Of a stretch of DNA of 64,000 nucleotides, positions 9,640 to 61,326 are shown one piece after another; the stretch's first letter is position 1; the number at the start of each line of letters is the position of its first letter. The notes beneath the pieces are model-generated. The model did not search any database. It was given only the letters and a program-made list of their open reading frames with translations, and was not told where the DNA came from. The stretch covers positions 2,020,954 to 2,084,953 of the forward strand of contig NZ_KI519454.1 in NCBI RefSeq assembly GCF_000482545.1, in the 5' to 3' direction. Made by a program: the position numbers and the translations under genes. This DNA is from Arthrobacter sp. 35W. Lineage in GTDB: Bacteria; Actinomycetota; Actinomycetes; Actinomycetales; Micrococcaceae.

Positions 9640-11021
9640 CAGAACGTTTCCTTTTCACCCGGTCGGCCCAGCAGCATGCGGGCCTCGGCCACCAGCGTGA
9701 TGGACCCGGTGACGAGCACGCCGCCGGCCAGGTCATTGTTGCTGTCGGCGCGTTCCACGGCCCACTCGATGGCGTCGTCGAGCTTCTCTGCGATGTGGAT
9801 GTTCGCCTCGTCCCAGCCCAGATCGGCGGCCAGTTCGGCCAGCTCGGCGGCCGGAATGGCGCGCGGCGAGTTGGACTGGGTCAGGCAGATTTCATCTGCC
9901 TCATCGCCGTAGGCCTCGCGCAGCTGGCGCAGGATCTCCTCCGCGTCCTTTTCCTGCAGCACACCCAGGATGACCACCAGCTTGGAGAAGGAGAAGGCCT
10001 CCTGCAGCGCCTCGGCGGAGGCCTTGATGCCGGCGGGATTGTGCGCGGCGTCCACCACGATGGTGGGCGAGGTGCGGACCACTTCCAGCCGACCGGGCGA
10101 ACTGGCGTTGCCGAAGCCCTCGCGGACCAGGTCAAGGTCCAGTTCGCGGGCGCCGCCGCCAAAGAAGGCCTCCAGGGCTGCCAGCGCGACGGCGGCGTTC
10201 TCCGCCTGGTGTGCGCCGTGCAGCGGCAGCAGGATGTCCGGGTACCGGGCGGCGAGGCCCTGAAGGGTGATGAGCTGCCCGCCGACGGCCACGCTGCGCG
10301 ACTCGACGCCGAACTCGATGCCCTCGAAGCGGAACTCCGCGTTCTTTTCCCGGGCAGCCTCGAGCAGCACCTGGGCGGCGTCGGTGGGCTGGGCGGCGCT
10401 CACCAGGAACGCGCCCTCCTTGATGATGCCGGACTTCTCACGGGCAATGTCACCGGTGGTGTCGCCGAGGAGCTCGGTGTGGTCCAGCGAAATGGGCGTC
10501 ACCACGGCCACCTGGCCGTCGCCGACATTGGTGGCATCGGTGATGCCGCCCAGACCCACCTCAATGACAGCCACATCGACGGGCTGGTCCGCGAAAATGG
10601 CGAAGCCCAGGATCGTCAGGCATTCGAAGTACGTCAGCCGCGGCTCGCCGGCGGCAACCAGCTCGGCGTCGACGATCTGAAGGTAAGGGTGGATCTCGTC
10701 CCAGATCCGCACAAACGTCTCATCGGGCACCGGGGCGCCGTCGATGCTGATCCGCTCGGTGACCCGGGTCAAGTGCGGGCTGGTGTAGCGGCCGGTGCGC
10801 AGGCCGTGTGCCATCAGACCAGACTCGATCATCCGCGCCGTGGACGTCTTGCCGTTGGTGCCGGTGATGTGGATGATCGGGTAGGCCTTGTTCGGCTCGC
10901 CCAGGATGTCCATCGCCCGGAACAGCGGGGCCAGGCGCGGCTCCATCTTGTTTTCCGGGGCGCGGCCCAGCAGCTCGGCGTAGACGCTCTCCACGGAGAA
11001 CGCGTCGTGTTCGGGGTTCAT
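9639..11021 (-). CDS. folC: Bifunctional dihydrofolate synthase/folylpolyglutamate synthase
   Basis: Mur-ligase-fold enzyme adding glutamate to dihydropteroate and to reduced folates. The 460-residue protein has the P-loop ITGTNGKTSTARM, the KSGIIKEGAFLVSA lysine region, GAHQAENAAVALAA and the C-terminal VVDAAHNPAG and GVLVTGSITLVAEA segments. Its ATG overlaps the ileS stop (TGATG) and its stop overlaps the DUF4233 start, so the three genes form a coupled operon under the ileS T-box promoter. Confidence 0.96.
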   Translation of the reverse strand: MNPEHDAFSVESVYAELLGRAPENKMEPRLAPLFRAMDILGEPNKAYPIIHITGTNGKTSTARMIESGLMAHGLRTGRYTSPHLTRVTERISIDGAPVPDETFVRIWDEIHPYLQIVDAELVAAGEPRLTYFECLTILGFAIFADQPVDVAVIEVGLGGITDATNVGDGQVAVVTPISLDHTELLGDTTGDIAREKSGIIKEGAFLVSAAQPTDAAQVLLEAAREKNAEFRFEGIEFGVESRSVAVGGQLITLQGLAARYPDILLPLHGAHQAENAAVALAALEAFFGGGARELDLDLVREGFGNASSPGRLEVVRTSPTIVVDAAHNPAGIKASAEALQEAFSFSKLVVILGVLQEKDAEEILRQLREAYGDEADEICLTQSNSPRAIPAAELAELAADLGWDEANIHIAEKLDDAIEWAVERADSNNDLAGGVLVTGSITLVAEARMLLGRPGEKETF

Positions 11022-14000
11022 CAGGCTACCGTCCTGTCGACAGTGATGGTGGTCTCAAAATCGCCGGGGACCAGTTCCAGATCCACGGTAAGCGTCTCGG
11101 TCTTGACGAGTTCGGCGTTGGCGTGCAGCGCGTCGATGGTCTCCTGCGGTCCACTGACCACAGTGCGGATGCGGTCGCTGACATTCAGGTCGGCTTCCTT
11201 GCGGGCGGCCTGAATGGCTCGGATCATGTCGCGGGCGGTGCCCTCGGCCTCCAGTTCGGGGGTGAGCTCGGTGTTGAGCACCACGAACCCGCCGCCGGGC
11301 AGGACGGCGACAGCCGCCGTCGCGCCGTCGCCGGAATCGGCAACAACCGTCTCCAGCGTGTACTCGCTGGGCTCCAGCGCCAGGCCGCCGGCGGTGACAA
11401 CGCCGTCGACGACGGACCAGTCGCCACCCTTGGCGCCCTTGATGGCCAGCTGGACGTTCTTGCCCAGGCGCGGACCGGCGGCGCGGGCGTTGACTACCAG
11501 CTTCTGCTCGATGCCGAACTCCTCAGGCGAGGCCGTGGCGGCGTCCACCAGCCGCACGGAGCGGATGTTCAGCTCGTCGGCGACGACGGCGGCGGCGCTG
11601 GTGAGCGCGCCGGCGTTCGGCGCCACCACGGTGAGCTCCTGCAGGGGCAGGCGCACACGCAGCTTGGCGGCCTTGCGCAGGCTGGAACCCGTGGAGCAGA
11701 TTTGCTGGATGCGGTTCATCTGCTCCACCAGGTCCGGGTTGGCGGCGAACAGCGAGGCCTCGGGCCAATCCGTCAGGTGCACGGAGCGCCCGCCGGTGAG
11801 CCCGCGCCAGATCTCCTCGGTGACCAGCGGCAGCAGCGCGGCGGAGACACGGCTGACGGTTTCCAGCGCCGTGTAGAGGGCGTCGAAGGCGTCGTGGTTC
11901 TCGTCGAAGAAGCGCTGGCGGCTGCGGCGGACGTACCAGTTGGTCAGCATGTCCAGGTAGCTGCGCAGCGAGTCGCAGGCACCCGAGACGTCGTAGTCAT
12001 CCAGCTGTTCGCGCATGGCGCGCACCAGATCGCCGGTGTTGGCCATCAGGTACTCGTCCAGGGTGTCGGAGTAACCGTCGTAGCGCAGCTGGGCGTCGTA
12101 GCCTGCGCCGCCGTTGGCGGTGTTCGTGTACAGCGTGAAGAAGCTGTACACATTCCACAGCGGCAGGATCACCTGGCGGACGCCCTCGCGGATGCCCTGT
12201 TCGGTGACCACCAGGTTGCCACCGCGCAGGATGGGGCTGGACATGAGGAACCAGCGCATGGCGTCGGAGCCGTCGCGGTCCAGAACCTCGGAGACATCCG
12301 GGTAGTTGCGCAGGCTCTTGGACATCTTCTGCCCATCGGAGCCGAGCACAATGCCGTGGCTGATGACGTTGCGGAAGGCCGGGCGGTCAAAGAGCGCCGT
12401 CGAGAGGATGTGCAGCATGTAGAACCAGCCGCGTGTCTGGCCGATGTACTCCACGATGAAGTCGGCCGGGTTGTGGGTGTTGAACCACTCCTCGTTCTCG
12501 AACGGGAAGTGGGCCTGGCCGTAGGGCATGGAGCCGGAATCGAACCACACGTCCAGCACGTCTTCGACACGGCGCATGGTGGACTTGCCGGTGGGGTCGT
12601 CCGGGTTCGGGCGCGTCAGCTCATCGATGAACGGGCGGTGCAGATCGGGCTCGCCGGCGGCGTTGAGCGGCAGCCGGCCAAAGTCGGCCTCGATCTCGGC
12701 CAGGGAGCCGTAGACATCGGTGCGCGGGTATTCGGCGTCGTCGGACTGCCACACCGGGATGGGGCTGCCCCAGAAGCGGTTGCGGCTGATGGACCAGTCG
12801 CGGGCGTTGGCCAGCCACTTGCCGAACTGGCCGTCCTTGACGTTCTCGGGGATCCAGTTGATCTCCTGGTTCAGGCCAACCATGCGCTCCTTGATCTTGG
12901 TCACCTCGACGTACCAGGAGGAGATGGCGCGGTAGATCAGCGGCGTGCGGCAGCGCCAGCAGTGCGGGTAGCTGTGCTCGTAGCTGGCCTGGCGCAGCAG
13001 TCGGCCGCCGGCCTTCAGCACGCGGGTGATGGCCTTGTTGGCGTCAAAGACCTGCACGCCGGCGATCTCGGCCAGCTCGCCGGTGGCGAAGAGCGGCAGG
13101 AAGCGCGCGCCCTCGTCCACGGACAGCACCACGGGGATGGAGTACTGCTCGCAGATCTTCTGGTCTTCCTCACCATAGGCGGGTGCCTGGTGGACGATGC
13201 CGGTGCCGTCGGTGGTGGTGACGTAGTCGGCCACGAGGATCTGCCAGGCATTGGCCGTGCCGTAGGTTTCCTCGTCGGCGAAGTAGTCCCAGAGGCGCTG
13301 GTAGCGCAGGCCCTCAAGCTCGGAGCCCAGGTAGGTGGCGGTGACGGCCTCGGCGGCAGCCGCGCCGTCGTCGTAGCCGAGGTCCTTGGCGTGCGCGCCG
13401 ACCAGATCGCTGGCGAGCAGGAAGCGCTCCCCCGCTGCGGCGGAACCGTTGGGGCCGGCGGGCACGACGGCGTAGGCCACGGTGGGCCCGACGGCCAGGG
13501 CCTGGTTGGTGGGCAGGGTCCATGGCGTGGTGGTCCAGGCCAGGGCGTTGACCCCAGCCAGTTCCTTGGACAGCTCGGACTCGCCGGCCAGCAGCGGGAA
13601 CGTGACGGTGACAGTCTGGTCCTGGCGCATCTTGTAGACGTCGTCGTCCATGCGCAGCTCGTGGTTGGAGAGCGGGGTCTCGTCCTTCCAGCAGTACGGC
13701 AGCACGCGGAAGCCCTGGTAGGTCAGGCCCTTCTCGTGGAGCTGCTTGAAGGCCCAGATGACGGACTCCATGTACTCCACGTTGAGGGTCTTGTAGTCGT
13801 TGTCGAAGTCCACCCAGCGGGCCTGGCGGTTGACGTAGTTCTGCCATTCACCGGCGTACTTCATCACGGAGGAGCGGCAGGCGTCATTGAATTTGTCGAT
13901 GCCCATGGCCTCGATCTGCTTTTTGTCCGTCATGCCCAGCTGCTTCATGGCCTCAAGCTCGGCCGGCAGACCGTGGGTGTCCCAGCCGAAGCGGCGCTCA

Positions 14001-47564: not shown

Positions 47565-49985
47565 ATGAGCAAACTATCGCCGATCCGGTGCGATGTGGGG
47601 CGTCTTGGGGTGTCTGTGAATCGCAATATTGTCGGCGGACTGTATGGCCGTGACGCTGAGTTGGCGCTGATCAGCCGGACACTTGAGCGCGTAAGCAGAC
47701 GAGACGCAGGTCCCGCAGGAGCGGTGATCATGCTCAGCGGCACTAGCGGAGCAGGAAAATCTGCACTCGCCGAGGCCGTACTGATGGCAGCGGAGCAACT
47801 GGGGTACATCTGCGTCCGCACGGCATGCGAACCCTTTCACGAAGGAATGAGCTACTTCCCGGTCAGGGAACTCGTACGACAGATGGCGGACGGCCGCCCC
47901 GTGGGAGATGTTGTCGCCGGGCAGTTCGGCGCCGGTTCGCCCGAGGTCGAGATGGCGGCTGTCAGTGAATCGATCTCTGCCGACCCGTCAAGCCGCAGAG
48001 AGGCCATCGTTGCCACGTTCACCAACGTGATCATGGGCGACTATCGCAAAGCCGGCTCCTCGCCGAAGCTGCTCTTCATCGATGACCTGGAACATTTGGA
48101 CGTTGGCAGCGCCGATGCACTGATCTGCTTGGTCTCGCGCCTCAGCGAAGGCCCAGTCGTCATTCTCGGGGCCTTTCGCTCCGACCGGGTGGCGGAGCCG
48201 GCGCACCCGGTCCGTCCCGTCATCGCTTCGGCGCGGCGTATGGAAGGGATCTACCAGAAACACGAGATCCGGGGCTTCGACAGCACCGGCTTCGGAGCGC
48301 TCGTGGAGTCTCTGCTCGGAGGCCCCACGAACCTGCCTGAGGCGGTCACAAAGAAGCTCTACGAAGAGACCGAAGGCAATCCGCTCTTTACCCGAGAACT
48401 GATCCGGATGCTCTGCTCCCCTGACCCTAGGTCGGGCCGTGTCTCGCTGAGCCAGACCAACGATGTCTGGCTCTTCGACGGCGACATTGGATCATGGGAC
48501 ATCCCCGACTCTGTAGAAGAGGTCATCGCCTCCCGATTGAACTTGCTCGCCGTGGACGAACGGCACGAGCTTGAGCTCGCGGCCGTAGTTGGGCGGCGGT
48601 TCGCCTTCGCCGTGCTCCACGGGCTGATGGAGGCAGGCGAGGACGAACTGCTGCAGGATCTGGAGAAATTTCTAGACGTCGACTTGATTCGGGAGCTCCA
48701 GACAAGCGACGAGTCCTTTGAGTTCTCGCACGGCAAGATCCGCGATGTGCTCTATTCGCAGCTAAGTGGATTGCGTAGGCGCCGTCTTCACGCTCAGGTC
48801 GCCGAGGTCATCTCCAATCTGCGAGCGAGCTCGAACGAGGACTGGGACGCTTTGATCGGCGAGCACCTGTATCTGGCCGCCAAGCACGCGGATGCCTTCC
48901 CGTACCTGCTCCGGGCGGCACGCAACGCGCAGGCCACCGGGGCGTCATCCGAGGCCGCCGCACTGTTCGGCAAAGTGTTGGAGTCCTCGGACGGAGTCGT
49001 ATTCGGCGGAGACGACTCCAGGGCTTCAATCCAGCTTGAGCTTGTGAACGCCTGTTTGAGCGCGAGCGAGGTTGCAGACGCCGGGCGTTTGCTCTCACAG
49101 CTGACTGGCGCAGAGAATCCCGCCTCAATCCGAGCTGTGGCGCTTGGTTTGTTGGGCGATGTGCTCCTATTCGAAGGGGAAGTCGACCAGGCGCTTGAGG
49201 CCTACGAAGAGAGTCGACGGTTGGCCGAGGCGCTCGATGACACCGAAGCTCTGTGCCAAGTGCTGTGTGATTTGGCCGAACTCCACGGACGCCAGTACGA
49301 GCGGCAGGCGGGTATTTCACCAACCAGTGCAGAGAATCATCGGATCCAGTACGTCGCGCACGTCGACAAAGCGTTCGCGATGCATGGGAATCTAGCGCCC
49401 GGCCCCCTGCGGGCCCGGGCGCTGCGGAACAAGGCGAAACTCTCACGAGTGTCCGGCGATCTCTCGGTTGCAGAGAGCCTTTACCGGCAGGCCATCGACA
49501 CTGTGGACAGCCGCGTGGCGAGCCACCGGTTCCTCATTCCCTATGCGAAGACGCTGCGGCGGGCGGGCAAGGCCGACGAGGCGCTCGGACACATCGAGCG
49601 TGTCATCTCGTGGAGCACGCAGGTCGGTTCGGCCCGGTCCCAGGCAATTGGCTGGCAGTATAAGGCGACATTCCTCATGACTCTCGCGAAGGATGACGAG
49701 GCATTCTCCGAGGCGAATGCGACGGCGGAGCGCGCCCTGCGCGGGCACCAATCAATTGGCTACGTCCAGGGTATTCGCGAGACCGAGATCGTGCTCGGTG
49801 AGATCGCGCTGAGAACCGGTGATCTGGAGTGCGCGCTCGAGTGGTTCACGTCGGCCACAGACGCGCGGGACCTCGTGCGCAACGAGCTGATGGAGGTGAT
49901 CGCGATCGAGCTCGACGCCAATGGCGAGGAGGATCGCGCGGCCTTGATCCGCGATGCGATCAAGGCCGAGGCAGTCACCGCATGA
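47565..49985 (+). CDS. STAND-type P-loop ATPase with TPR-like helical repeats
   Basis: An 806-residue predicted ATPase. After YGRDAELALI, the usual lead-in of AAA_16 modules, come Walker A GTSGAGKSAL (near 60) and Walker B KLLFIDDLEHLD (near 168), a sensor Arg segment ILGAFRSDRVAEP, and a winged-helix-like part (DSVEEVIASRLNLLAVDERHE). The C-terminal half is helical TPR-like repeats (ALEAYEESRRLAEALDD, VAESLYRQAIDTVDSR, DEALGHIERVISW). There is no cyclase, kinase or HTH effector domain, unlike LuxR- or adenylate-cyclase-linked relatives. The start is not certain (GTG at 47610 or 47616 would also serve). Codon use is less GC-rich than flanking genes. Its stop overlaps the next start (ATGA). 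Confidence 0.85.
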   Translation: MSKLSPIRCDVGRLGVSVNRNIVGGLYGRDAELALISRTLERVSRRDAGPAGAVIMLSGTSGAGKSALAEAVLMAAEQLGYICVRTACEPFHEGMSYFPVRELVRQMADGRPVGDVVAGQFGAGSPEVEMAAVSESISADPSSRREAIVATFTNVIMGDYRKAGSSPKLLFIDDLEHLDVGSADALICLVSRLSEGPVVILGAFRSDRVAEPAHPVRPVIASARRMEGIYQKHEIRGFDSTGFGALVESLLGGPTNLPEAVTKKLYEETEGNPLFTRELIRMLCSPDPRSGRVSLSQTNDVWLFDGDIGSWDIPDSVEEVIASRLNLLAVDERHELELAAVVGRRFAFAVLHGLMEAGEDELLQDLEKFLDVDLIRELQTSDESFEFSHGKIRDVLYSQLSGLRRRRLHAQVAEVISNLRASSNEDWDALIGEHLYLAAKHADAFPYLLRAARNAQATGASSEAAALFGKVLESSDGVVFGGDDSRASIQLELVNACLSASEVADAGRLLSQLTGAENPASIRAVALGLLGDVLLFEGEVDQALEAYEESRRLAEALDDTEALCQVLCDLAELHGRQYERQAGISPTSAENHRIQYVAHVDKAFAMHGNLAPGPLRARALRNKAKLSRVSGDLSVAESLYRQAIDTVDSRVASHRFLIPYAKTLRRAGKADEALGHIERVISWSTQVGSARSQAIGWQYKATFLMTLAKDDEAFSEANATAERALRGHQSIGYVQGIRETEIVLGEIALRTGDLECALEWFTSATDARDLVRNELMEVIAIELDANGEEDRAALIRDAIKAEAVTA

Positions 49986-51710: not shown

Positions 51711-52095
51711 TCCGCACAGTAACTCTTAGCCCAGGGTTTGACCGCGAGGGATTGTCGACCGCATCGATCCCGGTGGGGTCGGCTGTGTGATGTCCTGGCG
51801 CGTTCACGCTGCGGGCAAGGGAATGAATGTCGCACGTTTCGCGACGACGCTCGGAGCGCAAGTGCACGCGTACTCGCTCTTCGGCACCCTCGATGAGGAG
51901 AGGTTCCGCGCAGTGGCGGAGGGCGACGGCGTTCTCGTCGATACTTTCGCCGTCCCCGGCCGGACACGAGACAACCTGACGCTTACGAGCGAGGTCCTCG
52001 GTCCGATGGCCAGGCACGCCAGCGGACCGCGACTCGACGCTGTCCCCTCGGAAACAGTCGATCGGCTGGTTTCGCAACTGAACCGTCCCGTTTAG
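51707..52095 (+). pseudogene. PfkB-family (1-phosphofructokinase-like) kinase, frameshifted and truncated
   Basis: The frame starts (M)IRTVTLSPGFDR, the typical FruK/tagatose-kinase N-terminus, from a GTG at 51707 overlapping the HAD stop. Near 51743-51750 the frame is lost by one base and resumes as GIVDRIDPGGVGCVMSWRVH, then AAGKGMNVARFATTLG (sugar-binding GKG motif). It ends at 52095 after about 128 residues against roughly 310 in the family, where IS3-like DNA begins. Both lesions make it non-functional. Confidence 0.88.
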
Positions 52096-52382: not shown

Positions 52383-53768
52383 TCAGTTGGAAAGTGCGGC
52401 TGCGTCTTCGAGGTTTTTGCCCTTGGTTTCGGGTGCCATGAAGTAGCTAGTACCCGCACCGACCAGGGCGATCCCGGCGGCAATCCACATGGTTCCGGAA
52501 AGACCCAGGTGGGTGAGGGCCAGCGGTGTGGCGAAGGTGCCGATGGCGGCACCGATGCGGCTGGTTCCTGTGCACAGGCCGACGGCGGTGGCACGAACCT
52601 TGGTGGGGAACAATTCGTTGGGGTAGATCCATTCCAGGATCGAGGGGCCACCGTTGAAGATGGCGTAGAACGCGAAGGCCAGGGCAATCAGGCCCAGTGG
52701 CGCGGCGGGGAAGATGGCCAGGAACAACAGGCCGATACCCGAGAGGAGGAATCCCCAGATCAGGACAGGACGGCGGCCGAGCTTGTCGACAACGAGGAGG
52801 GCGACGATGTTGCCCACCAAGAAGAACAGGTTGATCAAGCCGTAGCCGATGTTGGCTGCATTCCCAGATTCGAGGTGGAACAGGGATAGGATCTGGGGTC
52901 CGAACGCGTAGATCGAGAACAAGGTCACGATGGTGCAGGTCCAGAAAATGGAGATGAAGATGACCCGGTTCAGGTAGCCGCCGGTGAGAACCATGGCGAA
53001 TGCCTTCTTGGTGCTGAGTTTGACCGCATTGGGGTCGTGGGCGGTGATCCCCTCCAGCGTTGCCCCCTCGCCGATGGCCTTCTTCAGGATGTCCAGGGCC
53101 TCCTGCTGGCGTCCCTTGCCAACCAGCCAGTGCGGGGATTCCGGGATGGTGGCCCGGGCAATGAGGATCAGCACTGCGGGCACCGCCGAGGACAGGAGCA
53201 TCCAGCGCCAGCCATCTTCGAGTGACAGCAGCCAGTAGCCGACGAACGCGGCAACGGTGGCCCCAACAAACCACATGGCATTCAGGCCGCCCAGCAGGCG
53301 GGCCCGCCAGTTCGCCGGGACGAATTCGGCGACCAAGGCGGTGGCGATGGGATAGTCGGCGCCCACCGCGATGCCGATGAGCAGGCGCAGGGTGAACAGC
53401 TGCCACGGTTCGTTGACCCAGAACTGCGCAATGGAGAACACGATGATCGCAACCAGGTCAATCGTGTACATGAGTTTGCGGCCGATTTTATCGGTGATGT
53501 TGCCGAAGACCAGCCCGCCAATGAACACCCCGATCAGGGCGGAAGCGCCGATGAGCCCGTTCCACCACTCGTTCATCTGCCATTGGGGAATGACCTGGAC
53601 CAGGGCGATGCCGATAATGGCCAAAATGTAGCCGTCCAGGAACGGCCCGCCGGAGCTGAAGAGGGTCAGGCGTTTGTGGAACGCGTTCAGGGGTGCTGAA
53701 TCGATGGTGGTTTGGGGCCTGGGCGCCGGGGCGGGTGATGGCATGGGGGATGGTGCGTGCGAGAGCAT
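52383..53768 (-). CDS. MFS transporter (sugar/metabolite:H+ symporter type)
   Basis: A 461-residue, 12-helix permease. The intracellular loop 2-3 motif FGNITDKIGRK, the loop 8-9 motif VVDKLGRR and the DLVAIIVFSIAQFW region are present; loop 6-7 is long (PESPHWLVGKGRQQEALDIL, the PESPRWL motif of the sugar-porter and related families). The closest-looking group is metabolite:proton symporters. The start at 53768 (MLSHAPSPM...) was chosen because GGAACC lies just upstream and earlier codons are poor. It is the last gene of the operon, 67 nt after RidA, and probably imports its substrate. Confidence 0.92.
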   Translation of the reverse strand: MLSHAPSPMPSPAPAPRPQTTIDSAPLNAFHKRLTLFSSGGPFLDGYILAIIGIALVQVIPQWQMNEWWNGLIGASALIGVFIGGLVFGNITDKIGRKLMYTIDLVAIIVFSIAQFWVNEPWQLFTLRLLIGIAVGADYPIATALVAEFVPANWRARLLGGLNAMWFVGATVAAFVGYWLLSLEDGWRWMLLSSAVPAVLILIARATIPESPHWLVGKGRQQEALDILKKAIGEGATLEGITAHDPNAVKLSTKKAFAMVLTGGYLNRVIFISIFWTCTIVTLFSIYAFGPQILSLFHLESGNAANIGYGLINLFFLVGNIVALLVVDKLGRRPVLIWGFLLSGIGLLFLAIFPAAPLGLIALAFAFYAIFNGGPSILEWIYPNELFPTKVRATAVGLCTGTSRIGAAIGTFATPLALTHLGLSGTMWIAAGIALVGAGTSYFMAPETKGKNLEDAAALSN

Positions 53769-53835
53769 GGTGGTTCCGATCTGAGTAATGGGAAAGCAAC
53801 GGTGGTTACCCAACAGATCCGTGGCCGTTGTCCGG

Positions 53836-54216
53836 TCAGGCTGTTACGGCTGCGACGGCATCAATTTCGATGCGCTTCTCGCCACGGAAACGCGCAACCT
53901 GCACGGTGGTCCGGGGAGGCAGGGGATGGCCGCTGAGCCTGGTGAGGTAGGCGGCGTTGTAGTCCTCGAACTCGTCCAGATCCGCGAGGTACACGGTGAG
54001 CTTGAGGAGGCTGGATAAGTCTGAACGAGCGGCCAACAGCGCCCGCTCCAGGTTGTCGAAGGCTTGAATGACCTGCCCTGCGATATCGGCAGGGCACAAT
54101 CCATCGGGACGGGTGGGCACCTGCCCGCAGAGAAAGATGATGCCTCCGACGGCGGCAGTGGCCGAGTAGGGCCGGGGTTTGCCGTCGGTGAACTGGGTGC
54201 GCTCGATGGTGCTCAT
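53836..54216 (-). CDS. RidA/YjgF family enamine/imine deaminase
   Basis: A 126-residue trimeric protein hydrolysing reactive enamine or imine intermediates. GGIIFLCGQVPTRPDG, LERALLAARSDLSSLLKLTVYLADLDEFEDYNAAYLTRLSG and PPRTTVQVARFRGEKRIEID match the family, including the Arg (PPRTT) that binds carboxylates and the terminal Glu. The ATG at 54216 overlaps the upstream stop (4 nt). In this operon it probably deaminates an intermediate made by the other enzymes, for example an aminomuconate-like enamine; this is inference. Confidence 0.93.
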   Translation of the reverse strand: MSTIERTQFTDGKPRPYSATAAVGGIIFLCGQVPTRPDGLCPADIAGQVIQAFDNLERALLAARSDLSSLLKLTVYLADLDEFEDYNAAYLTRLSGHPLPPRTTVQVARFRGEKRIEIDAVAAVTA

Positions 54217-54956
54217 TGGTCCGCCATCAGGTAGTTCCGGGAGAGCTGGTATATGCGGTGCCATTCTTCTTCACGTACTTTCAAGGGTTTTTGGGAGATG
54301 CCGGCGTCCAGGTGGACCAACTCGGTGGTGCCAGGCAGAACGACGATGACCGTGTCGTTCCCGTCCAAGGTGGGCAGCAGCGACGAGGCAATGGCGTCGG
54401 CGGGCGGCTCTGTTGCCGAGGCGACTGCACCGTTCTGGACGGTGAGGTATTCCGTGCTGCCGCCGCCGTCGGTGGCCGCGGCGTTGGAGATGGCGACAAT
54501 GATGGTGCGCTGCAGGCTTGCGCTGCGGCGCAGGAGAAGGTCGTTCCACAGTTGGCGCGGGATTCCGGAAGCCGTGGTTCGTGCCACGCGCACTTCGCCG
54601 GCGCTGCCACTGGCGGCCAGGTCAATGAGCTGCATCGCTGAACGCAGTGCCGGCTGTTGCGGGCAGTCCAGTTCGAGGACGCTGACACCGGCCCACGACG
54701 TCGATCTGGTGCCGGCGGCCCTCATGGACTGGGCCCAGCCCGCATCGATCAGTTGTTCCAGAAGGGCAAGCCCGTTCTGCGAGTCGGCTTCGGCCCGCAG
54801 AACGGCTAGTCCCCCTTCCCGGGCTTCGGCAGGGTCCGCGCCCGCGGCGCACAGCGCGCGGAAGGCTGATTCGGTGATCTCGCGGGGCTGGACGGAGGCG
54901 AAGGCGCTCCCCTGCACACCGGCTGTGCCCGCGGCCAGGGTGTTGGTGTCAGACAT
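54213..54956 (-). CDS. DUF3726-like protein of unknown function
   Basis: A 247-residue soluble protein. The N-terminal helices (REITESAFRALCAAGADPAEAREGGLAVLRAEADSQ in two halves) match the pattern of DUF3726, a family encoded in catabolic clusters near Ldh or aldehyde dehydrogenase genes; the match is by eye and moderate. The rest (QRTIIVAISNAAATDGGGST, DGNDTVIVVLPGTTELVHLD) suggests an alpha/beta fold with no catalytic signature. The start overlaps the M19 gene end by 8 nt and its stop overlaps RidA by 4 nt, so it is strictly coupled. Confidence 0.7.
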   Translation of the reverse strand: MSDTNTLAAGTAGVQGSAFASVQPREITESAFRALCAAGADPAEAREGGLAVLRAEADSQNGLALLEQLIDAGWAQSMRAAGTRSTSWAGVSVLELDCPQQPALRSAMQLIDLAASGSAGEVRVARTTASGIPRQLWNDLLLRRSASLQRTIIVAISNAAATDGGGSTEYLTVQNGAVASATEPPADAIASSLLPTLDGNDTVIVVLPGTTELVHLDAGISQKPLKVREEEWHRIYQLSRNYLMADQ

Positions 54957-55941
54957 GGGCTTTCTCTTTCGTGTTGTCCATGACCTCGGCGAAGAGGCGG
55001 CTGAAGTTGCCGCCCAGAACCGCGGCGATGGTGTCGTCCGTGAGACCTGCGGCGATGAGCCCGTCGGTCAGACGGGGAAAGTCTTCGGGCCCGGTGAACC
55101 AGTTGGGCCAGGTGGGCCACGTGGGCGCATGTTCCGGTGCCGTGGGCTGCCAGCGTCCGTTGCGGAGCCAGCCGACGAATTCGTGGTCCCAGCCGCGGGT
55201 GCAGTCGCTGCCCAGGCCGACGTGGGAGGGCCCGTACTGGTCCACCATGCGCGAGACCATGGCGGCGAAGCCCTCGATGGTCACGTGTTCGCCGCCGCTG
55301 ACGGTTGGGTAAAGGCAGCAGCCGATGACTCCCCCGCGGTCAACCATCGGTTGGATCACGTCGTGGGGTTTGTTCCGGGGTGTATCGAAGAACCAGAGCG
55401 GGTTGGAATGGGTGATCGCCACGGGGACGGTGGAGGCCTCGATCGCTTCGCGACTGGTCCGGTATCCAACGTGGGAGAGGTCGATGAGCATCCCGACACG
55501 GTTCATCTCCGCCACAACGACACGGCCGTATCGGGTGAGTCCGGCGTCCTCGGCTTCGAAACAGCCGCCACCGACCAGGTTCTGGTTGTTATAGGTCAGC
55601 TGGGCTATGCGGACGCCAAGCCGGTGGAAGAGTTCCACATACCGGTAGTCGTCTTCAAAGGGGCTGGTGTTCTGGAACCCGAGAAAGACGGCGATTCTGT
55701 TTTGCTGTTTGGCGGCTTCGATGTCAGCGCCGCTGGTGGCGAGGAAGAAGAGATCCGGGTTGCGGTTGGCCAGTTCGAGCCATTGGGCTATGGACCGGAT
55801 GGTTTCACTGGCGGTTTCCCAGACGGCGCAGGTGGCGTTGACGGCGCTGACGCCGCCCGTGCGTAGTTCCTCCAGGACCGGTCGGCTCCAGTTGCTGATC
55901 TGCAGGCCGTCAACGACGGTTGCCTGCCGGTGGACGCTCAT
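54949..55941 (-). CDS. Membrane-dipeptidase-like zinc hydrolase (peptidase M19)
   Basis: A 330-residue TIM-barrel amidohydrolase of the renal dipeptidase family. Recognisable segments are VVDGLQISNWSRP (the usual HxD metal motif is altered to D-G-L), LTYNNQNLVGGGC, MLIDLSHVGYRTSREAIEAS, VAITHSNPL (His ligand) and VGLGSDCTRGWDHEF. AAGGAGGG precedes the ATG by 5 nt, which overlaps the upstream stop. M19-like proteins occur in betaine and carnitine catabolic clusters of Pseudomonas; here the loss of the canonical HxD suggests a different activity from dipeptide cleavage. No signal peptide is seen. Confidence 0.85.
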   Translation of the reverse strand: MSVHRQATVVDGLQISNWSRPVLEELRTGGVSAVNATCAVWETASETIRSIAQWLELANRNPDLFFLATSGADIEAAKQQNRIAVFLGFQNTSPFEDDYRYVELFHRLGVRIAQLTYNNQNLVGGGCFEAEDAGLTRYGRVVVAEMNRVGMLIDLSHVGYRTSREAIEASTVPVAITHSNPLWFFDTPRNKPHDVIQPMVDRGGVIGCCLYPTVSGGEHVTIEGFAAMVSRMVDQYGPSHVGLGSDCTRGWDHEFVGWLRNGRWQPTAPEHAPTWPTWPNWFTGPEDFPRLTDGLIAAGLTDDTIAAVLGGNFSRLFAEVMDNTKEKAHV

Positions 55942-57656
55942 GCGTTCCCTCCTTCGGGAGCCAGTGGAAAGAGCCAGTCGTCATCGTCGGTTCCGTTCAG
56001 GATGTCCGCCACACGCGGTGCTCCGCTGAACAGGGTGACGCGGACCCAGTCGGTTGACTGGGGGCTGAAGTTGTTCATCCCGTAGGTGGCCAACTGGAAG
56101 CGTTGGGTGCTCAGCGGCAGGAATTCCGCATCCAGAAGGTTGTCGCGCAGTTCGCCGTATTGGTAGCACCGGGTCTGCTGGATCCGTTCGACGGCGAACC
56201 GGTGGCACGGATGTGCCAGCAGGAGTTCGGCCACGCTGGCCTCGGCGGGGAGCCCCGCCAAATCGGTGGCCAGAGCGTTGATGCGGCGTGCGATGTCGGT
56301 GCAGTGCTCCACAGTGCCGGCGGCCAGCCTTGCCCGCTGCGCCCGGCGCGGTTCCTCGCTGTCGGCGGAGGAGTACCAGTAGTAGCTGGAGCGTTCCGGC
56401 GTGGCAAAGTCATAGCTTCGCGCCCAGCCATAGTTCTGTTGCAGAAGCTCCCGCAGTTCACGGCAGCCCATGGCGGGGTTGAAGGGTGGCGAACCTGGCA
56501 CAGTGAGCAGGGCTTCGGCTTCCTGATCAAAGTCTGTCTGGAGTTCGACGACGATCGAGGCGAAGATGCCGCGGACTTCCGGGCTGAGTGCGGCCGCCAT
56601 GGCGTGCAGACGGGCCAGCACCGGGGCGGACTCCTGGCTGGATGCCATGTACGCCTGGAGTTCCGAGCGAAGCTGGTGGAGTTGGGGCCTGATCAAGTCC
56701 GTCGAGAGGAACGGGACCGTCTTGAGGTCGGACTTTTCCGCAAGATGCCGGTCCGCCCTCTCAAACAGGTCAACGATCCGGACCAAGTCCGGGTGGCCCG
56801 GCGCGTAGCTGGCGGCAAGCCCTGCCATCAGGGGAACCTCCCGAAGCCGGCACCAGGCATCAAGGTAGCCGGGGTGGTTGACGAGGAAGGGGACCATGCC
56901 CAGGCCTGTGGCGTTGCCCAACCCGAAGTACTTGGCCCAGGCCGCATCCAAGGGAACGGCCACGGTGCCGGCTGCCAGCGCCTTGGCTCCGGCAACGTGC
57001 TCCACCAGCTCCATGCTGAGCTCGCGCAGCAGCCAGGCCGCGAGCATCTGGGAACGGTAGGGGACGGACAGCGGGTGGCCGGCCGGGATGTTGGCCAGTT
57101 CCTTGAGCCCGAATTTGCCGTTGCCGTAGAACGCGGTGCTCCGGATCAGGTAGGGACTGGGGCCGATCTTGTCGACGTCGGGCTGGGTCCCTGTGGAGAG
57201 GCAGTCGCTGACGTAGTCGAAGAAGCGGGCGCTGCGGTTGGCCCGCGTCATGATGATCGTTTCCGGGTCGGTGCGGCCTTGTTCCTGGAACGGGACATTG
57301 CGGCGGAGGTCGGCTTCGCGCTCCGGCGTCAATTCGCCGTCGACGAGGGCGGCCGTGATGTCCCAGGACTTGGCGATGACCCGGTCGGTGCGATCACTTT
57401 CTTCCAAGACCTGGCAGAAGGCGATGAAGTTCAGCTCGAAGCCCTCGGCATTGACCGTGTACACGGCGGTCCCCCGTCCCAGCTCGTCGAGATCCAGCCG
57501 GGTCTTGGCCACCGTCCAACGGTGTGCGGCCGCGCGGCGGAGCATGGTGCGGGCAAAGCTGTGCCGGGTGGCCCAGGCACCGTTCATGTCGGCGCCGGAG
57601 AGCACTTCCTCCGGAGACCGGAGCTCGTGCACGGTTCGTTCATCCTGAAGCATCAT
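55938..57656 (-). CDS. Unrecognised 572-residue protein in a catabolic operon
   Basis: A soluble, mostly helical protein that I cannot place in a family. Segments that look conserved in character are KTRLDLDELGRGTAVYTVNA, NFIAFCQVLEESDRTDRVI, TIIMTRANRSARFFDYVSDC, SPYLIRSTAFYGNGKFGLKE, FGLGNATGLGMVPFLVNHPG and CHRFAVERIQQTRCYQYGEL. It has no P-loop, dehydrogenase or metal motif that I can recognise, and no membrane segment. Start ATG 57656 has AAGG 7 nt upstream and lies 2 nt after the aldehyde dehydrogenase stop. An ATG 2 codons earlier overlaps that stop. Its stop overlaps the M19 start by 4 nt. Obligate coupling to enzymes suggests that it is itself an enzyme. Confidence 0.85.
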   Translation of the reverse strand: MMLQDERTVHELRSPEEVLSGADMNGAWATRHSFARTMLRRAAAHRWTVAKTRLDLDELGRGTAVYTVNAEGFELNFIAFCQVLEESDRTDRVIAKSWDITAALVDGELTPEREADLRRNVPFQEQGRTDPETIIMTRANRSARFFDYVSDCLSTGTQPDVDKIGPSPYLIRSTAFYGNGKFGLKELANIPAGHPLSVPYRSQMLAAWLLRELSMELVEHVAGAKALAAGTVAVPLDAAWAKYFGLGNATGLGMVPFLVNHPGYLDAWCRLREVPLMAGLAASYAPGHPDLVRIVDLFERADRHLAEKSDLKTVPFLSTDLIRPQLHQLRSELQAYMASSQESAPVLARLHAMAAALSPEVRGIFASIVVELQTDFDQEAEALLTVPGSPPFNPAMGCRELRELLQQNYGWARSYDFATPERSSYYWYSSADSEEPRRAQRARLAAGTVEHCTDIARRINALATDLAGLPAEASVAELLLAHPCHRFAVERIQQTRCYQYGELRDNLLDAEFLPLSTQRFQLATYGMNNFSPQSTDWVRVTLFSGAPRVADILNGTDDDDWLFPLAPEGGNA

Positions 57657-57658
57657 GA

Positions 57659-59119
57659 TCATGCCTTCTCGGGGGCCAGGCGCAGGTAGGCGGTCTTTTC
57701 GTGGGTGAAGAATGCCGCGGCGACGGCACTGTTCTGCTCCCGGGGGCCGGCGAATGTTGAGTCCTTCATGCCGCCGAAGGGGGCATGAAGCTCGGATCCG
57801 GTCGAGGGAGCATTGACCTTTACGAGGCCTGCATCAAGATATGTGACGCACTGCCGGGCGGCGCGCTCATCGCTGGTGAATACCGCGGCTGTGAGGCCGA
57901 AAGCAGTGTCATTGGCCAACGCGATGGCTTCGTCAAGGGTGGCTGCCCGAAGCACTGTGACAACTGGACCAAAGACCTCTTCGCGGCAGATCGTCATCGA
58001 GGCCGGCCCGGTCAGCACCGTGGGTCGGACGTAGTACCCCTCCGAGGCAGGCGCAGGAGCCTGGGCAAGAATTTCCCCGCCTTCGCTGATGGCCTGTTCG
58101 ATCGCGGCATTGATTTCATCGCGGGCGGAGGCGGAGACAACCGGGCCGATCTGCACCGACGGGTCCGTGCCCGGGCCCAGCACCAGTGCGGAGACCTTCT
58201 CCTTCACCCGCTCCAGGAACGCCTCGTGGCCGCCGCCGACCAAAATGATCCGCCGGGTGGCCGTGCACTTCTGCCCCGTGGAACCCATCGCGGCATTGAC
58301 AGCGCTGGACGCGGCCAGTTCGACGTCGGCATCGGGCAGGACAAGCGTGGCGTTGTGTCCACCCAGTTCCATCTGCAGTTTCGCACCACGTCCACAAACA
58401 ATCCCCCGGATATGGTGGCCCACCGGAACGGATCCGGTAAACGTCACGCCCGCAACGCTCGGCTGGGAAACGAGTTCAGAGCCCAGCGGACCGGGGCCAA
58501 GGAGCAGGTTCGCGGCACCGGCCGGAACACCGGCGTCGGCCAGAATGTCCATCAGCAGGACCGACACTCCAGGGGTGTGGCTTGCGGACTTCCAGACCAC
58601 CGTGTTGCCGTGCAGCAATGCCGGTGCGATCTTCCACGCCGGGATCTGCAGCGGGAAATTCCAAGGCGTGATCACCCCTACGATGCCCAGCGGGCGCCGC
58701 ACCGTGAGGATCCGCTCATCAGGGTGGCTCGAGGGGTATTCGGTGCCGATGGGATTCCGGGCCGAGCCCGCGTGGTAGTCGAACGTATCGGCCGAGGCGT
58801 CCACCTCCATCCTCGACTCAGCCAGCGTCTTGCCGTGCTCGTCCGTCATGACCCGGGCAATCTCTTCGGCCCGTTCCCGGATCAGGGCTGCCGCAGCCGA
58901 GAGGATCCGGCCCCTGGCCAGAATCCCCAGGCTGTCCCACGCAGGGGCGGCGGCGGCGGCCGCCTGAATCGCCTGCGCCAGCTCCTTGGAACCGGCCTGG
59001 TGGTAGGTGGTGACCGCTTCCCCCGGTGCCGACGGGTTGAACCGGGACGTAGCGTCACCGCTTCCTTCAACCCAACTGCCGTTGATGAAGCTACTGGCGG
59101 GCTTGGTCATGACGGGCAT
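57659..59119 (-). CDS. NAD(P)-dependent aldehyde dehydrogenase
   Basis: A 486-residue ALDH oxidising an aldehyde to the acid. It shows ITPWNFPLQIPAWKIAPALL, FTGSVPVGHHI (cofactor), MELGGHNATLVL with the general-base Glu, the catalytic Cys in STGQKCTATRR and EEVFGPVVTVL. The family's usual N-K pair is altered to VVWKSASHTPG, still with Lys. The start at 59119 follows AGAGG by 7 nt. First gene of the operon and divergent from the LysR gene. Related ALDHs act on semialdehydes from amino acid, betaine or aminomuconate routes; the substrate cannot be fixed. Confidence 0.93.
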   Translation of the reverse strand: MPVMTKPASSFINGSWVEGSGDATSRFNPSAPGEAVTTYHQAGSKELAQAIQAAAAAAPAWDSLGILARGRILSAAAALIRERAEEIARVMTDEHGKTLAESRMEVDASADTFDYHAGSARNPIGTEYPSSHPDERILTVRRPLGIVGVITPWNFPLQIPAWKIAPALLHGNTVVWKSASHTPGVSVLLMDILADAGVPAGAANLLLGPGPLGSELVSQPSVAGVTFTGSVPVGHHIRGIVCGRGAKLQMELGGHNATLVLPDADVELAASSAVNAAMGSTGQKCTATRRIILVGGGHEAFLERVKEKVSALVLGPGTDPSVQIGPVVSASARDEINAAIEQAISEGGEILAQAPAPASEGYYVRPTVLTGPASMTICREEVFGPVVTVLRAATLDEAIALANDTAFGLTAAVFTSDERAARQCVTYLDAGLVKVNAPSTGSELHAPFGGMKDSTFAGPREQNSAVAAAFFTHEKTAYLRLAPEKA

Positions 59120-59203
59120 TCTGGAACCTCTTAGTGTTTGTCGATCTGTGATTGTCCTCACCATCAACGGTAGACCCGGATCACATCCCAAAGAAGTATT
59201 CAT

Positions 59204-59217
59204 TTGACTCGCATCAA
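59204..59217. promoter_or_regulatory. Candidate LysR operator
   Basis: TTGA-CTCGCA-TCAA dyad, 22 nt upstream of the LysR start and 85 nt from the aldehyde dehydrogenase start, in the shared divergent region. It fits the T-Nx-A style of LysR sites only loosely. Confidence 0.35.
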
Positions 59218-59238
59218 TATGTGTTTAGTCTTGTTCGT

Positions 59239-60138
59239 ATGAACCTTCGCCGACTGGAGCTGTTCGTTGCCGTGGCCGAAGAACTGCACTTCAACCGTGC
59301 GGCCGAACGGCTCCACATGGCCCAGCCACCCCTCAGCCAGCAGATCCGCAAACTGGAAGAGGAATGCAAAACCCAACTGTTCGTGCGCAACTCCCGCAAC
59401 GTGCAGCTCACCGCCGACGGCGAACTGCTCCTGACACACGCCAGGAAAATCCTGGGCCAATTTGGGGCCATGACCGCGGCACTTCGGCAGTCCCGGGACG
59501 GCGAAATCGGCAGGCTTCGTCTGGGGTTCGTCTCATCGGCGGCAATTTCGGCCCTTCCACCGGTGGTTCGGGAACTCCGATCGCAATGGCCCGGCATCGA
59601 CCTCGAGCTCCGCGAGGAAACCACCGACGCGCAGATAGTCCTTATTGCCGCCGGAGCGCTGGATGTCGGAATCGCCCGCGAAGTCCGCGCTGTGCCGGGC
59701 CTGAAGGCCACGCTCCTGCAAAATGAACGACTCGTACTGGCCGTTCCTGCGGACCACCGGCTGGCTCCCCGGCACTCGGTCGCGCTTGGCGAGCTGAAGG
59801 GCGAGAGGTTCATTGCCTTCCCGCGCGACCGGATCTCACGGCTTTTCGACCACATCGCCGCATTGCTCCACGCCGCCGACGTCGACTTCGATCTTGCGCA
59901 GCAGGCCGTCCAGTTTCCGACCATCCTTGGGCTGGTGGCCGCGCACTTGGGGATCGCGGTCGTCCCCGAGTCCCTTCGGGCCTTCGCTATCCCCGGCATT
60001 GCCTATCTGGACATCCAGGACACCAGCGCGGTCTCCCGCGTCAGCCTGATCTGCAGCCAGGACATGGCTGACTCGCCCCTCGTCGCCAAGGTCAAGGAAG
60101 CCTGCCGGCAAACAATGGGGATCCCCGACCCTGATTAG
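59239..60138 (+). CDS. LysR family transcriptional regulator
   Basis: A 299-residue regulator, most likely controlling the divergent aldehyde dehydrogenase operon. The N-terminal HTH reads MNLRRLELFVAVAEELHFNR followed by AAERLHMAQPPLSQQIRKLE; a substrate-binding domain of the BenM/CatM type follows (LRLGFVSSAAISALPPVVRELRSQ, LDVGIAREV). The sequence resembles regulators of aromatic and amine catabolism that respond to pathway intermediates. The ATG at 59239 gives the standard N-terminus; upstream in-frame codons lie in the operator region. Confidence 0.93.
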   Translation: MNLRRLELFVAVAEELHFNRAAERLHMAQPPLSQQIRKLEEECKTQLFVRNSRNVQLTADGELLLTHARKILGQFGAMTAALRQSRDGEIGRLRLGFVSSAAISALPPVVRELRSQWPGIDLELREETTDAQIVLIAAGALDVGIAREVRAVPGLKATLLQNERLVLAVPADHRLAPRHSVALGELKGERFIAFPRDRISRLFDHIAALLHAADVDFDLAQQAVQFPTILGLVAAHLGIAVVPESLRAFAIPGIAYLDIQDTSAVSRVSLICSQDMADSPLVAKVKEACRQTMGIPDPD

Positions 60139-60360: not shown

Positions 60361-61326
60361 ATGAGTGAGACTGCCGCCAATTCCGTGACTCTTCGTTTCC
60401 TTGCCGCCCCCACCGACGTCGGACACAGCGGCTCGGTGGATGCCGGCACTGTGCTGGAGTGGGTGGACAAGGCAGCCTATGCCGCTGCGGTGGGCTGGGC
60501 TAAGTCCTACTGTGTGACGGCCTATGTGGGGAACATCCACTTTGCGGACCCTGTCAACAGTGGCGACATGGTGGAGGTCGAGGCAACCATTGTCTACACC
60601 GGCCGGTCGTCGATGCATATTCGCACCGTGGTGTCCTCGGGCGACCCCAGGGGTGGAGTCCCCACGATGCGCAGTCAGTGTGTGGTGATATTCGTGGCCG
60701 TGGGCGAGGATGGGAAACCCGTCCCGGTGACGCCGTTTGAACCTGCCACGCCGGAGCAGATTCGACAGCGCGATGACGCTGTGGCCCGGATCAAGGTCCG
60801 GGAAGAGATCGTGGCGGCCATGAAGGCCCAGGAATACACCGATGCGGGAACCGCCGAGCGCGTGGTCCTAAGATTCATGGCTTCCCCCACGGACGTGAAC
60901 TGGGGTGGAAAGGTCCACGGCGGCATCGTGATGAAGTGGATCGATGAAGCCGCGTATGTGTGCGCATCACGTTACTGCGGCAGCGACACCGTGGCGGTGT
61001 TCTCCGGCGGCGTACGGTTCTACCGGCCGCTGCTGATCGGCCATGTGGTGGAAGTCGAGGCCCGCCTGGTCTATACGGGAACAAAGGGCATGCACATCGC
61101 GGTCCACGTCCGTTCGGGGGATCCCAAAGGACGGGAGATGAACCTGACCACCTACTGCCTGACCGTGATGGTGACTCGGGACGACGCCGGCAACTCGGTG
61201 CCGGTTCCTCCTTGGGTTCCCGTTTCCGATGAGGACAAGCGCCTGCACGACCACGCCCTTGATCTGCTCGAAATCCGCAGCACTGCGCCAGGAAACAGGC
61301 TCCCCAACCACCTGCTGCCGGCCTAG
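60361..61326 (+). CDS. Tandem hotdog acyl-CoA thioesterase
   Basis: A 321-residue protein made of two hotdog domains in tandem, each with the acyl-CoA thioesterase motif: TVLEWVDKAAYAAAVGWAKS in the first half and GGIVMKWIDEAAYVCASRYC in the second. Each is followed by HFADPVNSGDMVEVEATIVY or FYRPLLIGHVVEVEARLVY. The second domain keeps the Asp of the active site (WIDEAA) and GGKVHGG, while the first has SGSVDAG; one half may be structural. Flanked by 220 nt without other genes on the left, convergent with add on the right. Confidence 0.92.
   Translation: MSETAANSVTLRFLAAPTDVGHSGSVDAGTVLEWVDKAAYAAAVGWAKSYCVTAYVGNIHFADPVNSGDMVEVEATIVYTGRSSMHIRTVVSSGDPRGGVPTMRSQCVVIFVAVGEDGKPVPVTPFEPATPEQIRQRDDAVARIKVREEIVAAMKAQEYTDAGTAERVVLRFMASPTDVNWGGKVHGGIVMKWIDEAAYVCASRYCGSDTVAVFSGGVRFYRPLLIGHVVEVEARLVYTGTKGMHIAVHVRSGDPKGREMNLTTYCLTVMVTRDDAGNSVPVPPWVPVSDEDKRLHDHALDLLEIRSTAPGNRLPNHLLPA

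Follow-up and report, generated by a model that had tools for sequence, protein, structure and literature searches.

Which compound is broken down by the operon at positions 52383-60138 of the 64,000-nucleotide stretch of Arthrobacter sp. 35W DNA analysed here (contig NZ_KI519454.1; hereafter the window), and by what chemistry? On the minus strand it encodes, in this order, an aldehyde dehydrogenase (ALDH), a 574-residue protein of an unrecognised family, a protein with the fold of M19 peptidases, a 247-residue protein and a RidA-family deaminase, followed by a major facilitator superfamily (MFS) transporter; a LysR-family regulator is encoded divergently. All of these genes, the divergent LysR and the trailing MFS gene included, lie where a first-pass annotation of the same DNA had placed them, and its reading as one coupled catabolic operon is supported. 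The first five genes overlap by 4, 4, 8 and 4 nt, the last value using the likely RidA start at 54216; the annotation had described overlaps together with 2-nt gaps, of which there are none among the five genes, and the large protein, then given as 572 residues long, has 574 when counted from the first ATG. The locus is a real, widespread catabolic operon and probably an actinobacterial RidA variant of homarine-type catabolism. We consider it moderately likely that it degrades an N-methylated pyridinium carboxylate imported by the MFS protein, most probably homarine (N-methylpicolinate), by the route proposed below. The kind of pathway is probably a known one, and its unexplained part consists of the RidA variant, the unrecognised fold and the ring-opening step.

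A chance arrangement of these genes is ruled out, because the core is kept across phyla. A scan of genome contigs gave at least 582 confirmed relatives of the 574-residue protein, the best 80 of which were used as loci (numbered with the prefix L), and a plasmid search for the family turned up 168 records. Carriers among the best 80 include Arthrobacter, Specibacter, Pseudarthrobacter, Amycolatopsis, Acidimicrobiales, Shinella, Aminobacter, Psychrobacter, Halomonas, Pseudomonas, Brevibacillus, Pelagibacterales (L093) and a SAR116 bacterium (L108), and the M19-like, 574-residue and 247-residue proteins recur together as a core in Actinomycetota, in Pseudomonadota (Pelagibacterales and SAR116 among them), in Bacillota and in other groups. 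Arthrobacter sp. H14-L1 and Specibacter cremeus have large proteins 80-82% identical to that of the window. Within the Actinomycetota the operon is patchy: the large gene is present in 7 of 58 relatives and in 5 of 396 genomes drawn across the phylum, the latter survey scoring three candidates per genome and the window's own genome being counted in both. In a tree of 84 rows, from which near-duplicates and a broken copy (L035) were left out, the window falls in a separate deep actinobacterial clade of 18 rows with a support of 100. The transporter in this clade is of the BCCT or MFS type; RidA is present in most of its Micrococcaceae members, and an Ldh gene in three of its Acidimicrobiales rows. 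The genus-mate G011 carries a second gene of the 574 family (L032, contig C12), 33% identical to that of the window and located in an IclR/574/DUF3726-like/M19 operon of the Sinorhizobium (S.) meliloti type, so that one genome houses two members of the family; in G005, too, there are two copies (77% and 47%). In L035, from Pseudarthrobacter sp. Fe7, the gene is open for the C-terminal 369 residues only (10617-11726) and no ALDH was detected, pointing to a broken copy or an assembly error.

Examining the gene neighbourhood of the large protein, a check that the first-pass annotation had suggested, revealed recurrent partners. Among the 57 of 80 loci flanked by 5 kb or more on each side, genes within 7 kb encoded an M19-like protein in 52, the small subunit in at least 44 (by BLAST), ALDH in 26, LysR in 23, RidA in 18, BCCT in 16, SoxA-like proteins in 14 (one spurious, L104), SoxB-like proteins in 13 and Ldh in 12. 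Shinella and Aminobacter show one typical layout, LysR / ALDH-M19-574-DUF3726-Ldh accompanied by ProXWV, and Phaeobacter inhibens 2.10 and Tritonibacter another, LysR / ALDH-M19-BCCT-574-DUF3726-Ldh. Transporters of the BCCT or the glycine-betaine ABC type are often found next to homologous operons. In the window's own clade, BCCT occurs together with RidA in L029-L031, L036, L037 and L044 (L029 and L037 apparently being the same contig) and with no detected RidA in L038 and L040. With BCCT, glycine-betaine ABC transporters and genes resembling N-methylglutamate dehydrogenase (Mgd) as neighbours, the betaines and N-methyl compounds named in the first-pass annotation were the right substrate class.

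The Ldh gene of the relatives has its best PDB match in delta1-piperideine-2-carboxylate reductase (1wtj, 180 bits; next match 124 bits), and we take this reductase (1wtj, 2cwh) to be DpkA. DUF3726 relatives match the same Pfam family, Ldh_2; the window differs in that its genome lacks an Ldh_2 match and in that its own DUF3726 partner appears truncated. For the sarcosine-oxidase-like tetramer found beside some of the operons, the NCBIfam soxA and soxB models are subfamily-level and could not by themselves separate Mgd from sarcosine oxidase. A midpoint-rooted tree was made from nine chosen loci, not all that have a tetramer, with references labelled by gene context and one of them for Mgd. 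In it, the tetramers of the nine operons group with the Mgd beside glnT and glutamate-synthase genes (L122), separated by a 100/100 branch from the glyA-side copy (L124), and five of the nine lie inside a 98/99 clade with L122. The beta subunits are 72-74% identical to L122 versus 51-53% to L124 in L010, L021, L022, L065 and L076, and 57-61% versus 47-50% in L051, L054, L071 and L108. A plain sarcosine oxidase was rejected as the identity of the neighbouring tetramer, which falls on the Mgd side of the tree. An N-methyl-imine reductase followed by Mgd in the relatives suggests an N-methylated C5 dicarboxylate intermediate. Two further observations concern related genes. On Aminobacter sp. SR38 plasmid pSR3 (L121), a gene of the SoxB/MgdA kind that shares 75% identity with the one in L051 lies beside genes for an Xaa-Pro peptidase, an arylmalonate decarboxylase and an Ehu-type transporter, and no 574 gene is annotated within the stretch shown; MttB-like trimethylamine methyltransferase genes lie within about 10 kb of some 574 operons (L048, 19122-20675; L024, 2894-4450).

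The RidA gene alternates with the Ldh and Sox genes of the relatives. Ldh or Sox is found in 22 of the 39 loci that have no RidA, while among the 18 RidA loci Sox was scored in one, L104 (Fisher p 3e-4 over the 57 loci). This match, 23% identity to SoxA on a 547-residue open reading frame (ORF), was judged spurious and left out of the tree trait count. For the 66 tree rows with enough flank for such a count, the traits of annotated plasmid rows being set by hand from their tables, 21 have RidA, 20 have Ldh/SoxA and none has both, with 10 changes for each trait. In the window's genome there are no Ldh_2 matches, and the best soxB match scores 97 bits against a cut-off of 529, so that no N-methylglutamate dehydrogenase was scored. 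The genome encodes two copper amine oxidases, which could serve as a methylamine sink. Their genes (L114 and L115) score equally and lie about 39 kb apart in opposite orientation on contig C2 (1263959 and 1303437), possibly as a recent inverted duplication.

The large subunit (55938-57662, minus strand) is matched by no Pfam family at E<=1 and by no NCBIfam model at E<=0.1, and a sequence search of the PDB gave nothing credible (best E 1.5). It is 31-48% identical to the aligned rows, its two closest excepted. Across 63 members of the family there was no consistent Pfam match either, any one model being hit by at most 5 of 63 and the best E value, 0.0072, coming from a single member; comparison of the family with the Ldh set by hhalign gave nothing. 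An AlphaFold2 model computed from a 63-row alignment (the window and 62 of the 80 loci, near-identical rows and the broken L035 left out) reached a pLDDT of 92.1 and a pTM of 0.92. The structure prediction that the first-pass annotation had proposed thus yielded a confident model with no match to a solved fold: Foldseek of the whole model against the PDB gave 0 matches at E<=0.001 (best E 0.64), and a second look with VIA gave a best Z of 4.7 over 97 residues. This outcome excludes no family, and the model suggests a fold that is not yet solved.

The small partner (54213-54956, minus strand) has no Pfam match at E<=1, DUF3726 (PF12525) included, and no NCBIfam match at E<=0.1. By hhalign it aligns with its DUF3726 relatives over 220 columns (94.1%, E 1.2e-7; control against M19, 0.4%), so the earlier label of DUF3726-like stands at the profile level and finds no direct counterpart in the Pfam match. 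Of ten small partners scanned with Pfam, seven scored above the DUF3726 cut-off and two above that of Ldh_2 (46.1 and 44.5 bits, cut-off 38.8), while the actinobacterial partner of L036 matched neither family. The link between DUF3726 and Ldh_2 rests on these Pfam matches of relatives, because the direct hhalign comparison of DUF3726 with the hom-type Ldh set is weak (4%, E 0.009; 66% over 42 columns for the window's clade). Judged from these profiles, the 247-residue protein is apparently a divergent DUF3726 protein and a truncated relative of Ldh_2; a structure predicted from its single sequence reached a pLDDT of 44.5. It very likely forms one enzyme with the large subunit, because its gene lies immediately 3' of the 574 gene in most of the listed proteobacterial loci and the two are fused into one 814-residue protein in Mesorhizobium sp. 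131-2-1. In two Acidimicrobiales loci (L046 and L048) the ORF in its place has just 113-116 residues and would, by position and N-terminus, be the same small subunit; these ORFs and the 204-residue ORF of L043 have no Pfam match. In the libraries searched, the large protein and its small partner are the two pathway proteins that remain without an assigned function, as had been stated before.

The M19-like protein (54949-55941, minus strand) matches Peptidase_M19 (PF01244, 2.8e-71) only from profile position 37 onwards. M19 enzymes are dehydropeptidases with a binuclear metal site formed by an HxD motif, a bridging Glu and two His. In all 36 aligned sequences, the window included, the HxD position reads D-[GCNA]-[LIT], which shows that the altered motif reported in the first-pass annotation is real. 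Gln90 and Tyr117, which stand opposite a Glu and a His of the classical M19 protein 3id7, are invariant in the alignment, as are H157, H178, R189 and D246. Compared with the M19 membrane dipeptidase, the protein belongs to the same family by sequence and keeps H157 and H178, and differs by the absence of HxD and by Gln90 in place of Glu. The closest PDB match, 2i5g (2e-67), presumably P. aeruginosa PA5396, shares the substitutions at HxD, Glu and His and is labelled just 'amidohydrolase'. With these metal ligands lost in 36 of 36 sequences, a working dipeptidase was rejected as its identity; a functional binuclear dipeptidase site appears unlikely, and the earlier suspicion that the protein may not be a dipeptidase is probably correct.

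The ALDH gene (57659-59203, likely ATG 59119, minus strand; Aldedh 6.2e-144) encodes a protein whose best NCBIfam models are alpha-ketoglutaric semialdehyde dehydrogenase (440.6 bits, cut-off 770) and 2,5-dioxovalerate dehydrogenase (421.9 bits, cut-off 750), and it appears like the dehydrogenases of C5-dicarboxylate semialdehydes. The RidA protein (53836-54264, likely ATG 54216, minus strand; Ribonuc_L-PSP, PF01042, 2.8e-23) has an Arg118, within PPRTTVQVAR, that aligns with an Arg of PDB 5yu2; this is the catalytic or substrate-binding Arg of RidA proteins. The family is that of enamine/imine deaminases, and an N-methyl imine may be the substrate here. The aldehyde and enamine/imine intermediates that the first-pass annotation had deduced from ALDH and RidA are plausible. 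The MFS transporter (52383-53813, likely ATG 53768, minus strand; Sugar_tr type, 6.7e-67) is likely an importer and starts 67 nt after the RidA gene. A counterpart of its gene adjoins the operon in L025-L028 and L033-L035, which are close relatives (87-95% identity), and in Amycolatopsis L039 (69%); its matches in the PDB were unspecific.

The homarine operon, reportedly described by Ferrer-Gonzalez et al. in 2026, is said to be named homABCDER, to occur in SAR11 and SAR116 and to run via N-methylglutamate. The LysR gene and five enzymes of the proteobacterial layout ALDH-M19-574-DUF3726-Ldh would agree with such a name, which implies five enzymes and a regulator, and the carriers in Pelagibacterales (L093) and SAR116 (L108) would agree with such a distribution. 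A third likeness is the link to Mgd, seen for relatives of the window's operon in the tetramer tree and, for the pathway itself, in a 2026 paper, PMC13390433, according to which Mgd takes part in homarine catabolism (citing Ferrer-Gonzalez et al., Nat Microbiol 11:1531-1546). Given this statement (PMC13390433), the earlier verdict of an unknown substrate was probably too pessimistic, and homologues of the large protein in an operon of known substrate, which the first-pass annotation had expected would turn this into a known pathway, are probably those of the homarine pathway. A literature search for DUF3726, homABCDER and homarine operons, which did not cover the primary homarine paper, found no gene list. 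The window differs from the homarine pathway by RidA in place of Ldh, no soxB above the cut-off, the M19-like gene between 574 and DUF3726, and an MFS importer.

The ring of homarine contributes five carbons, to which the carboxylate adds one; the skeleton of N-methylglutamate is one carbon shorter. In the route that we infer, the order of its first three steps included, the 574-residue protein and its DUF3726 partner would dearomatise the ring and cleave the C5-C6 bond, leaving C6 as an N-formyl group and giving an N-formyl-N-methyl dehydro-amino acid with a C5 aldehyde. ALDH would then oxidise the C5 semialdehyde, and the M19-like protein would hydrolyse the N-formyl dehydro-amino acid and free formate. 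Finally, RidA would hydrolyse N-methyl-imino/enamino-glutarate to 2-oxoglutarate and methylamine, where in relatives a DpkA-like imine reductase would give N-methylglutamate for demethylation by Mgd. LysR would regulate the operon and the MFS protein import the substrate. Cleavage at C5-C6 suits an ALDH of the C5-semialdehyde kind, the amide-hydrolysing M19 fold and, at the end, an imine open to either reduction (Ldh) or hydrolysis (RidA). The 574/DUF3726 pair is favoured as the ring opener because it is the constant and unexplained part of the operon. Tentatively, it may represent a new enzyme class that opens N-methylpyridinium rings, whose fold would be new and whose small subunit would descend from Ldh_2 (DpkA-type) reductases, accompanied by an undescribed hydrolytic RidA ending that yields methylamine and 2-oxoglutarate.

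Several observations weigh against homarine and the proposed route. A phylogenetically independent test of the alternation between RidA and the reductase is underpowered (0 pairs same, 3-4 opposite, p 0.125-0.25), and in 17 of the 57 loci both RidA and Ldh/Sox were missing from the neighbourhood. Of the nine tetramers, four (L051, L054, L071 and L108; alphaproteobacteria and SAR116) are sister to the L122 clade and not inside it, and the Mgd side of that tree has a single Mgd reference, labelled by context. The ALDH misses the cut-off in each of the 25 NCBIfam rows listed. Not one of 18 genomes of the same genus, whether or not it carries the operon, has an Ldh_2 match at the cut-off, so the absence of Ldh_2 here provides no contrast; copper amine oxidases are present in 4 of the 7 carriers and in 4 of the 11 genomes without the operon. 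The PurU/FolD genes seen close to some operons are no argument for formate release, because such genes are likewise found after an Mgd-type cluster whose displayed stretch contains no 574 gene. The alignment of the 574 family (window and 62 loci) contains just one invariant His, which makes a classical non-haem iron oxygenase unlikely. The presumed equation of the hom genes with this cassette draws on the reported name homABCDER, the reported occurrence in SAR11 and SAR116 and, separately, on the Mgd sentence in PMC13390433; homarine is the favoured candidate substrate for this genome and its relatives, and the separate actinobacterial clade means that the window's substrate may differ.

With a substrate of the same class, the M19-like protein, having lost one metal site, could itself be an O2-dependent ring opener, and the 574/DUF3726 pair would serve a prior reduction or hydroxylation, or a deformylation; we regard this as rather unlikely. 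According to PMC7356986, NicX and HpdF, dioxygenases that act on dihydroxypyridine, are homologues of metallo-aminopeptidases, the model of NicX proposes one lost metal site with one Fe2+ per subunit being enough, and KpiC of Arthrobacter is a ring-cleaving dioxygenase of the amidohydrolase family whose pathway has a probable deformylase after ring opening. Pyridine rings are opened here by members of hydrolase families, NicX among them having lost one metal site, and the pattern in the window (H157 and H178 kept, HxD absent, Gln for Glu in 36 of 36 sequences) would fit. However, NicX/HpdF and KpiC belong to other families and act on hydroxylated and not N-methylated substrates, while homarine is not hydroxylated. 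Moreover, the M19-like gene was not found within 7 kb of the 574 gene in 5 of 57 loci, nor in the stretch of L020, which fits a downstream helper better than a ring opener.

The same chemistry might instead act in this actinobacterium on another N-methyl or quaternary zwitterion, such as trigonelline, stachydrine-type betaines or another N-methylpyridinium acid, to which we assign a low but appreciable probability. The actinobacterial proteins form a separate deep clade, an MFS protein takes the place of BCCT, and distant members of the 574 family sit in operons of an evidently different kind (S. meliloti, Natrinema, Bosea, Variovorax, M. ciceri), so family membership alone fixes no substrate. 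Nevertheless, the core genes and the types of ALDH and RidA are the same as in the proteobacterial RidA-type operons, and trigonelline has a separate pathway (Tgn) with different enzymes. Improbable in our view is an ordinary pathway for an amine, a dehydropeptide or an N-acyl amino acid, in which the M19-like protein would cleave peptides or amides and N-methylglutamate would be linked to it only incidentally. The M19 fold assigned by Pfam would agree with such a role, as would the distant S. meliloti member beside ABC transporter, aminotransferase and RidA genes; the degenerate metal site and the recurrent neighbours (Mgd-type proteins, DpkA-like reductase, betaine transporters) speak against it.

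The divergent regulator lies at 59152-60138 on the plus strand (HTH_1 7.6e-24, LysR_substrate 7.3e-42), with a likely ATG at 59239 (MNLRRLELF), and in relatives, too, LysR is divergent beside ALDH. Between the two genes, an ATTTGA-N6-TCAAT dyad (59202-59218, no strand assigned), which occurs once in the window, is a putative LysR binding site. When the window is aligned with five close relatives, all six sequences retain the TTG and AAAT parts of the dyad, and four of the six retain the complete TCA half. A scan for promoters and terminators performed no better than on shuffled sequence. Adjoining the LysR gene, 60361-61326 encodes a tandem hotdog (4HBT) thioesterase, which was not seen as a member of the conserved cassette. 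At the other end, a 102-residue ORF (51787-52095), residues 3-67 of which match only positions 30-95 of the 302-position PfkB sugar kinase profile, looks like a remnant or frame-broken kinase, and 47565-49985 encodes an 806-residue AAA_16 ATPase with TPR repeats, in which the Pfam scan shows no evident C-terminal output domain.

The homarine pathway is reportedly a marine one, of SAR11, SAR116 and roseobacters. If the operon does degrade homarine, the pathway would extend into Arthrobacter-like actinobacteria, and its nitrogen product would differ there, being free methylamine instead of N-methylglutamate. The ring-opening activity would be sought first in the 574 family, which has no recognised fold, together with its apparently truncated Ldh_2 partner. 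RidA, usually regarded as a detoxifying housekeeper, would gain a likely dedicated catabolic step on an N-methyl imine.

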